DNA of 33,688 nucleotides from Acidobacteriota bacterium (GTDB lineage: Bacteria > Acidobacteriota > Blastocatellia > Pyrinomonadales > Pyrinomonadaceae), in contig JAKQII010000203.1 in assembly GCA_029557535.1 (NCBI GenBank), positions 1 to 33,688 on the forward strand, in the 5' to 3' direction. Position 1 is the first letter of the stretch; every line of letters begins with the position of its first letter. A program made the position numbers and the translations under genes. Below the pieces are notes generated by a model. The model was not told where the DNA came from. It searched no databases and saw nothing but the letters and a program-made list of their open reading frames with translations. Shown one piece after another: positions 18,457 through 25,106 of the stretch.

Positions 18457-18553
18457 CGATTTTCAATTTGAAATTTTCGATTTGCGAACGGGTGTCCGCC
18501 AAGCCTTTATCGCTCTCAAAGATCGCAAATTGCAAATCGCATGTCGCAAATGC
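18457..18553. repeat. Inverted heptad element (CGATTTG/ATCGCAA type) running into xdhA start
   Basis: The left arm is CGATTTT, CAATTTG, AAATTTT, CGATTTG in exact register (18457-18484). The right arm is ATCGCAA, ATTGCAA, ATCGCAT, GTCGCAA, ATGC (18522-18553). Both candidate start codons of xdhA (18541 and 18550) lie inside the right arm, and the left arm starts one base after the preceding TGA stop. Confidence 0.9.
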
Positions 18554-19971
18554 TTAGGTTCATCCTTAACAACCAGACCGTCGAAACCGACCTGCCGTCC
18601 GGCATGACGGTGCTCGATTTTGTCCGCTATCACAAGAACCTCAAGGGCACAAAAATCGGCTGCCGTGAAGGCGATTGCGGCGCATGCACGGTGCTCGTCG
18701 GAGAGCTGACGGACGGCGAGGTCGGGTATCGTTCGATGACGTCGTGCCTGATGCCGCTCGCGAACGCCGCGGGAAAACACATCGTGACGATCGAAGGCAT
18801 CAACCCGGCTGACGGCGGACTCACGCCGGCACAAACGGCGTTGGTCGATGAGTCAGGGACACAATGCGGATTCTGCACAGTTGGGTTCGTAATGTCACTT
18901 ACCGGATATTCGCTTTCGGGCGGCGAGCGTTCGGGCGAGACGGCGCTCTCCGCGATCGACGGCAACATCTGCCGCTGCACGGGTTACAAGTCCATCGAAA
19001 GAGCGGCAAAGCGGATTTGCGATTTGCAATTTGCGATTTGCAATTCGACGATTTCGGCCGCTGAAGTCGCTGGTTCCCAAATCGATCAGGCGATCAGCAC
19101 CGGCACGGTTCCTAATTACTTCGAGTCGATCGGTGAGCGTTTGAGAATGCTGTTCACCGAGGATTCAAATCGAAAATTGAAAATCGAAAATCGCAAATGG
19201 ATGGCCGGCGGAACAGATCTGTACGTCCAGAAGCACGAGGAGATGGTTCACGCAGGCGCCGTAAGTTTGTTTGATGATCCGTCACTGCGATTCATTAACG
19301 AGACCGCCGATTCGGTGGAGATCGGGCCATCGGTCGTCGTGACGGACCTGCTCGAATCCGAAGTCTTCAATCGACTGTTTCCCGATCTATACAGGCATTT
19401 GAAACTGGTTTCGTCGACGCCGATCCGGAACATGGCGACGCTTGCCGGGAATTTCGTAAACGCTTCGCCGATCGGCGACATGACCGCTTGGTTCATCGCT
19501 TTGGGAGCGCGGATCGAGCTTCGCGACCAGTTCAGCGGCGACGAACGAACGATCGCGCTGGCGGACCTTTATCTCGGTTACAAGACGCTCGACAGGCGCG
19601 ATTCGGAGATCATCTCGAAGATCACGTTCGGCAAGGATTTCACGCATTTCAATTTTGAAAAGGTATCGAAGCGGACCTATCTCGATATCGCGTCGGTCAA
19701 CACGGCGATCTCGCTGAAGGTTTCGGACGGCATGATCGAGCGGGCGCTTGTTTCGATGGGCGGCGTGGCGCCGACACCGCTGCTGCTTCGCAAGACTTCG
19801 GAATTCATGACCGGAAGGCCGTTCGGTCACGAAACATTCGCCGCCGCCGAGTTGTTGATCCAGGACGAGATCGTGCCCATCTCCGACGTCCGCGGCTCAG
19901 CCGAATACAAGCGACTCTTGGCGCGGCAGCTTTTCCGGGCGCATGGTTTGGCAGTGAGCAGTGAGCAGTGA
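18541..19971 (+). CDS. xdhA: Xanthine dehydrogenase small subunit (2Fe-2S and FAD domains)
   Basis: A 476-residue XdhA-type subunit. Cluster II cysteines are Cys41, Cys46 and Cys49 in GCREGDCGAC, with Cys69. Cluster I cysteines are Cys109/Cys112 in CGFC and Cys144/Cys146 in CRC. The FAD-binding domain follows with MAGGTDLYVQKHEEM and TPIRNMATLAGN, then a CO-dehydrogenase-type flavoprotein C-domain. It would carry electrons from the molybdenum subunit (XdhB) to NAD. No xdhB is in the window. The interdomain linker (residues about 158-219) contains two tandem heptad arrays in frame, read as RICDLQFAICN and SNRKLKIENRK. The start may be 18541 or 18550, both in repeat sequence. The last residues (AVSSEQ) and the TGA stop come from the following GCAGTGA array. 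Confidence 0.9.
   Translation: MSQMLRFILNNQTVETDLPSGMTVLDFVRYHKNLKGTKIGCREGDCGACTVLVGELTDGEVGYRSMTSCLMPLANAAGKHIVTIEGINPADGGLTPAQTALVDESGTQCGFCTVGFVMSLTGYSLSGGERSGETALSAIDGNICRCTGYKSIERAAKRICDLQFAICNSTISAAEVAGSQIDQAISTGTVPNYFESIGERLRMLFTEDSNRKLKIENRKWMAGGTDLYVQKHEEMVHAGAVSLFDDPSLRFINETADSVEIGPSVVVTDLLESEVFNRLFPDLYRHLKLVSSTPIRNMATLAGNFVNASPIGDMTAWFIALGARIELRDQFSGDERTIALADLYLGYKTLDRRDSEIISKITFGKDFTHFNFEKVSKRTYLDIASVNTAISLKVSDGMIERALVSMGGVAPTPLLLRKTSEFMTGRPFGHETFAAAELLIQDEIVPISDVRGSAEYKRLLARQLFRAHGLAVSSEQ
19014..19048. repeat. In-frame GATTTGC heptad array inside xdhA
   Basis: Five consecutive heptads: GATTTGC, GATTTGC, AATTTGC, GATTTGC, AATTCGA, in perfect register. They lie in the coding linker after the second 2Fe-2S domain and encode roughly DLQFAICN. 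The orientation is opposite to the array at 19163-19197, so the two behave like the left and right arms of the intergenic elements. Confidence 0.9.
19163..19197. repeat. In-frame TCGAAAA/TCGCAAA heptad array inside xdhA
   Basis: Five heptads in perfect register: ATTCAAA, TCGAAAA, TTGAAAA, TCGAAAA, TCGCAAA. They encode SNRKLKIENRK just before the FAD-domain motif MAGGTD. The last unit is complementary to the TTTGCGA register of the array at 19014. Confidence 0.9.
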
Positions 19972-20220
19972 GCAGTGAGCAGTGAGCACTGGGCACTGGG
20001 CACTGGGCAGTGGGCAGTGAGCGGTGAGCAGTGAGCGGTGAGCGGTGAGCAGTGAGCAGTGAGCAGTGAGCAGTGAGCGGTGAGCGGTGAGCAGTGAGCA
20101 GTGAGCAGTGAGCAGTGAGCAGTGAGCAGTGAGCAGGAGATTGGCGTCGGACGGTCGCAAATCGCAAATTGGAAATCGCAAGTATCTGATACTGCTCACC
20201 GCTCACTGCTCACTGCTCAC
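19951..20220. repeat. Long GCAGTGA heptad array with inverted TGCTCAC arm and a nested TCGCAAA array
   Basis: From 19951 to 20132 there are 26 uninterrupted heptads, mostly GCAGTGA, with GCGGTGA, GCAGTGG and three GCACTGG variants clustered at 19986-20006. A second array of another heptad (TCGCAAA, TCGCAAA, TTGGAAA, TCGCAAG; 20155-20182) follows. Then come four inverted units TGCTCAC, CGCTCAC, TGCTCAC, TGCTCAC (20193-20220). The first three units overlap the end of xdhA and supply its stop. The last unit ends nine bases before the HAD gene start. Confidence 0.95.
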
Positions 20221-20229
20221 CAAAAAGAA

Positions 20230-24949: not shown

Positions 24950-25106
24950 AAATCCGAAATCCGTTCATCGGATATCCGCAATCCCAAATCCGCAATCCCA
25001 AATCCGAAATCCGAAATCCGAAATCCCAAATCCGCAATCCCAAATTGGCGTGGCGGAACTCCAAACATCCCAAAATCCCCAATCCCAAATCCGAGTTCCC
25101 AAATGC
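24950..25106. repeat. Heptad array (AATCCCA/AATCCGA type) downstream of the PP2C gene
   Basis: About a dozen nearly contiguous heptads of AATCCGA, AATCCCA and AATCCGC type occupy 24950-25048. A second block follows at about 25064-25106, ending TTCCCAAATGCC one base before the TAA stop of the PP2C gene (25108-25110). All clear units run in one orientation. Only a short TCATCGGATATCC at 24965-24977 hints at an opposite arm. The remainder of the 295-base spacer (24813-24949) shows nothing recognisable. Confidence 0.85.

Follow-up and report, generated by a model that had tools for sequence, protein, structure and literature searches.

Within the gene xdhA, two arrays of 7-nt repeats face each other in the coding sequence, which raises the question of whether a repeat element has entered a working protein or whether these residues are ordinary linker. 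The gene lies in a window of 33,688 nt (the whole stretch of DNA analysed) from an Acidobacteriota bacterium of the Pyrinomonadaceae, and a sequence-only reading of this window had proposed that a repeat element entered, or expanded in, the linker between the 2Fe-2S and FAD domains. The features concerned are, in window coordinates:

18541-19971, forward strand: xdhA, an XdhA-type [2Fe-2S]/FAD subunit of 476 aa (open reading frame; Fer2, Fer2_2, FAD_binding_5 and CO_deh_flav_C; PDB match)
19014-19045, forward strand: left, GT-rich arm, four GATTTGC/AATTTGC heptads plus 4 nt, residues ~158-168 (TRF, array list, model)
19046-19166, forward strand: host sequence between the arms, including VPNYFESIGERLRML at 19108-19152 (alignments)
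19167-19198, forward strand: right, AC-rich arm, AAATCGA/AAATTGA/AAATCGC heptads, residues ~209-220 (TRF, inverted repeat, model)

The two oppositely oriented, in-frame arrays are real. TRF called period-7 arrays at 19014-19054 (GATTTGC) and 19167-19198 (AAATCGA) inside the open reading frame, and a repeat search of the window returned an inverted repeat of 34 nt in which 19015-19048 pairs with 19165-19198, 79% complementary at a spacing of 116 nt. The first count of five heptads in each array was slightly generous, as the clean arrays (19014-19045 and 19167-19198) contain 4.6 units each and the left array has a degenerate fifth unit, AATTCGA. The argument that such units encode one circular heptapeptide in every frame, free of stops, holds for GATTTGC, which gives DLRFAIC, and for TCGAAAA, which gives SKIENRK, but not for other families, since CACTGAC contains TGA. 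The best PDB match of XdhA is a bacterial xanthine dehydrogenase, 2w3r_A (E 4.7e-63). Fer2 and Fer2_2 precede the left array, with Fer2_2 ending at residue 157, and FAD_binding_5 and CO_deh_flav_C come after it, the FAD_binding_5 match running from residue 216 (profile position 22). An AlphaFold model (mean pLDDT 77) shows helix 149-168, the last of the 2Fe-2S domain, extended by the left array; confidence is low over the residues that follow, 169-178. The right array covers low-confidence residues 209-214, between helix 192-209 and strand 218-221, the first strand of the FAD domain, and part of its residues (~210-215) falls in a gap of the alignment to 2w3r_A. Both arrays had been assigned to the linker; the left one does lie at the domain boundary, but Pfam and the model place the right one in a predicted loop at the N-terminal edge of the FAD domain, outside the linker proper.

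We aligned XdhA orthologues taken from the family and from GTDB genomes, 34 distinct ingroup sequences (Pyrinomonadaceae) and 50 outgroup sequences, nearly all from Bacteroidota. The left segment, from the end of SIERAA to VPxYF, is 24 aa long in all 50 outgroup sequences and varies from 14 to 55 aa in the ingroup. At lag 7 the identity is 0.37 and 0.38 at the two ingroup sites, and at most other lags it is ~0.25; the 50 outgroup orthologues show no lag-7 peak there. Ordinary linker would have been indicated by the same residues in repeat-free orthologues; the outgroup residues are unrelated and their length is fixed, and this explanation was rejected. Close relatives had been expected to lack the array residues, but their sites are mostly not empty and hold other repeats instead. 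Both sites are hypervariable within the Pyrinomonadaceae, carrying GATTTGC, GTCAGTG, GTCAGTT, GTGAGCA or AAATCCA heptads or a REP-like palindrome. GTCGGTGGTCAGCGGTCAGTGGTCAG faces CCGACCACTGACCACTGACCACCGACCACTG in L098, GTCAGTT arms occur in L105 and L015, GTGAGCA arms in L029, and the REP-like TGTCAGAACCGCCTGCGTCAGCGGGCGG with its reverse complement in L020, L030 and others; L018 has no clear array at either site. The presence of different repeats in different lineages over a repeat-free outgroup shows that the XdhA arrays are derived relative to Bacteroidota, and that the two sites are occupied recurrently, with families turning over across the Pyrinomonadaceae. Array-encoded peptides such as ICDLQFAIC, NPKSKIQNPKS and SEPPALAGG are not to be taken for conserved protein motifs.

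The arrays of xdhA belong to a class that is spread through the window's own genome (4.77 Mb in 404 contigs), where RATTTGCRATTTGC, with at most one mismatch, has 508 matches against 0 for a reversed-pattern control. A first sample of 407 kb held 78 period-7 arrays and, after block shuffling, none. A 706-kb sample, taken from contigs with pattern matches so that densities are biased upward and comparisons of period and polarity are internal to it, held 140 arrays of period 7, 18 of period 8, 10 of period 9 and 0-2 for periods 5, 6, 10, 11 and 12; 360 kb of outgroup loci held four period-7 arrays. Tandem 7-nt units, usually in 3-6 copies, occur at many loci per genome, and the heptads are highly diverse inside one genome, with many families. 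The length of the arrays had a mode of 30-33 nt (~31 nt) in three genomes, the samples from G011 and G041 being likewise placed around known matches. These properties bear on the possibility that each array grew in situ, by slippage from chance heptads in an ordinary linker. Bacterial tandem repeats are known to favour period 7 (PMC4692102), and loops are tolerant of length change, yet locally grown arrays should match neither genome-wide families nor each other. The same heptad families recur hundreds of times across the genome, the two XdhA sites match as inverted copies, and the lengths have a mode near 31 nt rather than a decaying distribution; local growth, already disfavoured, is to our minds highly improbable.

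Among 63 neighbouring arrays 10-160 bp apart in the 706-kb sample, the order was GT-AC in 48, AC-GT in 2, GT-GT in 4 and AC-AC in 9, which bears out the earlier impression that the xdhA arrays share the inverted orientation of intergenic elements. Intergenic arms show a tendency to lie at gene edges, the GT arm starting close to a stop codon and the AC arm finishing close to a start codon, with a strand polarity like that of published heptameric repeats. By crude ORF calls, in genomes that are mostly MAGs and with simple calls around the arrays, those within -40 to +20 nt of a stop numbered 34/64 in the GT sense and 13/62 in the opposite sense. In addition to XdhA, in-frame arrays were found in four other proteins of this genome (G000):

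L183 3325-4197 (contig C190): MqnA, an in-frame inverted heptad pair, SICDFQFAIGSDQSQIANRKSQIR
L068 10652-12766: PcrA/UvrD, a heptad pair (compared with L253, L254 and L265)
L185 243-2549: PurL, a single in-frame heptad array, residues 410-421
L069 15906-18710: AMP-ligase/acyltransferase, a single in-frame heptad array, residues 743-753

In orthologues the MqnA site carries other heptads or a REP-like peptide, with a lag-7 identity of 0.42 at the site and 0.24 elsewhere in the gene. The MqnA site looks empty, at 27 nt, in L244, L249 and L251. At the PcrA site the heptad pair of G000 is matched by REP-like inverted pairs in G030, G031 and G032, and the site is short (81 nt) in several g5 genomes; the period-7 signal there is limited to G000 and is not general. 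On these comparisons MqnA and PcrA each have one site that is recurrently occupied, and empty in some relatives. The GT-first order is also found inside XdhA, MqnA and PcrA, where there is no start or stop codon, so proximity to gene edges does not by itself account for the polarity.

The two arms of one xdhA gene match each other as inverted copies. In the 34 ingroup sequences, local complementarity of left and right sites averaged 12.9 within the same gene and 7.8 between different genes (z 8.5; 0 of 20,000 permutations, which ignore relatedness), and it stayed at z 6.1 without the REP rows. The direct orientation gave z 0.27, the outgroup z 0.74, a reverse-only control z 0.2 and shuffled sequences z 0.4, with a small z of 3.3 for complement only; pooled identity matching as the whole cause was rejected on the flat direct, reverse-only and shuffled controls, despite this small complement-only value. 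On account of relatedness we built a linker-free tree, on which the arm-type labels (ten classes read by eye from the sequences, with rows below a clear match set as unmatched) require 15 changes, the fewest possible being 9. The REP label alone needs 5, at least 3 of them forced by well-supported branches. Arms of one pair also mirror each other better than same-family arms from other pairs do (0.694 against 0.604; 15 of 10,000). Within XdhA the arms are unmatched in 18 of the 34 ingroup orthologues, and mirroring is thus not obligatory.

This joint turnover could also reflect a selected RNA structure. A hairpin in the mRNA would slow the ribosome where the two domains meet, or link the translation of one gene to that of the next, and compensatory change would keep the arms paired. 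A long stem is predicted for xdhA RNA (z -1.97, with 9 of 200 shuffles equally stable), and the intergenic placement of GT arms near stops and AC arms near starts also speaks for it. Matched arms, however, are missing in half of the orthologues, the structure is absent in Bacteroidota, L018 has no clear arrays, and the intergenic pair just upstream of xdhA (18457-18551) folds hardly better than its shuffles (z -0.78). We regard selection on the RNA as rather unlikely.

The loci L104 and L105, whose xdhA genes are 89% identical with flanks at ~92%, have right arms of different families at equal loop length, one arm of L104 having changed alone. The exchange at the right arm (L104 3587-3619 compared with L105) is from a CAGTTGT-type array to AAATCCA. 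Identity in this pair is 12% (aa) in the right loop, 56% in the interior and 92-96% in the flanks, so the whole island is divergent, as it would be had recombination with orthologues of other species replaced the linker island. This is a single pair, however, and at comparable flank identity the interior is little more divergent than it is in the outgroup (e.g. 0.51 against 0.60). We consider allele replacement very unlikely; that the interior was swapped along with the arms, an idea taken from the same two loci, is not supported by the outgroup baseline either.

The sequence between the XdhA arms belongs to the host protein. VPNYFESIGERLRML is kept in Bacteroidota too, and P191, F194 and L201 of the interior are invariant in A1; the interior is therefore not a mobile insert, and insertion of an element together with its interior was rejected for XdhA. 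Among the intergenic pairs, 38 interiors were compared and no common interior of the MITE type was found, one 12-nt match being the only similarity. The conserved protein inside the XdhA pair and the unrelated interiors of the intergenic pairs point to the arm as the part that propagates. The proposal of a repeat element that entered or expanded in a protein linker is supported in this modified form, in which the element replaces as well as adds.

Two inverted short repeats around a spacer, with hairpin potential, are also the layout of REPINs, and the arms could be the ends of non-autonomous elements moved by hairpin-recognising Y1 (TnpA-REP/RAYT) transposases. In some relatives the sites of the heptad arrays in XdhA and PcrA do hold inverted pairs of REP-like arms (TGTCAGAACCGCCTGCGTCAGCGGGCGG), and Y1_Tnp is present in 106 of 119 genomes of the family. 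The heptad arms, however, are not palindromic REPs, and in the flanks of those Y1 genes that were examined we found neither systematic heptad arrays nor a linked RAYT/Y1 transposase with the same repeat. G039 (83% complete) has 666 GTCAGT-type matches and G040 has 129, with no Y1 match in either genome, and, as noted, interiors are not shared. A Y1 transposase as the required mover was rejected on these grounds, namely the lack of regular flanking arrays and the abundance of repeats in G039 and G040. A RAYT route is possible for the REP-like arms; as an account of the arms as a whole, we think such transposition unlikely.

The explanation that we favour as probable is that the xdhA arrays together make up a single inverted pair, each being one of its arms, and belong to a genome-wide class of ~31-nt period-7 modules (GT-rich 5', AC-rich 3') that here occupy two tolerant loops and spread arm by arm. 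The spreading unit would be the arm and not the sequence between arms. An arm may reach a permissive site from other genomic copies, seeding in trans, and its mate would be newly made, or held to match, on the spot. The most likely means would be snap-back template switching between the arms as the DNA replicates, together with slippage by 7 nt at a time. Selection would retain only in-frame, stop-free versions that fit the surface loop, and the arms would require no function for XdhA. It is possible that the matching partly reflects a pool of families shared within each genome, and template switching alone leaves the seeding, the 31-nt length and the GT-first polarity unexplained. The route of spread is one that we infer, and no case of insertion at either XdhA site was seen between near-identical genomes. 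More doubtful is a broader proposal, that a process in Pyrinomonadaceae writes ~31-nt period-7 tracts of arbitrary sequence with fixed polarity, arranged as inverted pairs that flank host DNA, both at gene edges and in loops, conserving length, period and geometry but not sequence, with REP-like arms sharing the sites. If true, this writing process would be previously unrecognised.

Across these genes, repeats of a non-coding type repeatedly rewrite the loops of working proteins (XdhA, MqnA and PcrA, with single arrays in PurL and the acyltransferase), and two distant sites of one gene often change together. Orthologous genes then provide a natural record of heptad and REP-like element turnover, and a long-standing question, the manner in which heptad repeats spread, becomes testable, as densely sampled loops should show single events. 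Rickettsia palindromic elements are likewise in-frame repeat inserts tolerated inside proteins. The coding palindromes of Nematomorpha mitochondria have inverted arms that are both coding, as here (PMC6649704), and the fast-evolving tandem repeats of Borgs make disordered segments, repeat DNA being tolerated in proteins as here (PMC9879509); all three differ from the present arms in unit, host and presumably mechanism.

The closest published repeats are the paired, inverted GGGAATC heptameric repeats of Xanthomonas (Rehm et al. 2015, PMC4692102). They are dispersed genome-wide, and two genomes have 70 and 75 convergent pairs at close spacing. Arrays on the coding strand lie 0-50 bp from stop codons and those on the non-coding strand 0-50 bp upstream of ORFs, the same gene-edge polarity as here, and a relative has them at the same positions, varying in length and sequence (PMC4692102). 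As far as the accessible parts of that paper describe it, this is one G-rich family, discussed as quadruplex-forming and rarely intragenic, in contrast to the many families and in-frame pairs seen here; a matched in-frame pair, switching of families between orthologues and exchange with REPs are not reported there. GATTTGC has no G run, and a quadruplex-forming unit is a feature of the Xanthomonas and Nostoc families but not of the TAACTGA family. TAACTGA direct repeats occur in Beggiatoaceae, Cyanobacteria and Bacteroidetes in sets of 2-6 units just upstream of starts, with some in ORFs, mostly at protein ends, and mobility suspected (MacGregor 2015, PMC4679880). Unlike the arms here, they are direct repeats of one heptad with a single inverted case and, in the accessible text, no comparison of orthologous proteins. 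In REPINs a less conserved spacer separates two short repeats in inverted orientation; they form hairpins and occur in many copies (Bertels and Rainey 2011, PMC3116915). RAYT genes are linked to their arms, which are palindromic REPs, whereas our heptad arms are direct repeats, and the likeness lies in the REP-like pairs that occupy the same XdhA and PcrA sites in some relatives only. Heptad repeats, their gene-edge polarity and intergenic convergent pairs are thus already published (PMC4692102, PMC4679880); in-frame pairs, joint turnover, exchange with REP-like arms and a fixed arm length are new here. We found no description of heptads in Acidobacteria in the literature, and in the open-licence literature, a limited base for such a statement, no account of in-frame pairs whose families turn over jointly in orthologous proteins, of heptad and REP-like exchange at one site or of a ~31-nt length mode.

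Further arrays surround xdhA in the window:

18457-18551, forward strand: intergenic pair just upstream of xdhA, of a family shared with the xdhA arms (sequence, TRF 18522-18551, fold)
19951-20136, forward strand: GCAGTGA x26 array, overlapping the xdhA C-terminus (TRF, C-terminal alignment)
20155-20221, forward strand: AC arms opposing the GCAGTGA array, TCGCAAA at 20155-20176 and ACTGCTC at 20191-20220 (TRF, inverted repeats)

The AC arm of the upstream pair reaches into the xdhA start codon (ATCGCATGTCGCAAATG). The predicted start lies inside the heptad array 18522-18552, so either the array encodes the first residues, MSQM, or translation truly begins at the second ATG. At the other end, XdhA terminates in RAHGLAVSSEQ where relatives have TAHFVELF, the GCAGTGA array having replaced the usual end, and the TCGCAAA arm sits between that array and its facing ACTGCTC arm. 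We also observed long CTTTTTCCC-type arrays that mix 7- and 8-nt units, at 64-161 of the window, ~1-409 of L077 and 9093-9209 of L078, apparently a separate pyrimidine-rich family. A long AATCCGCAATCCCA array lies between convergent genes at 24950-25045 of the window, with no obvious GT-rich mate of equal length. Intergenic heptad pairs also occur in tandem duplicate, interior included, at L070 17175-17407 and L065 18737-18938.
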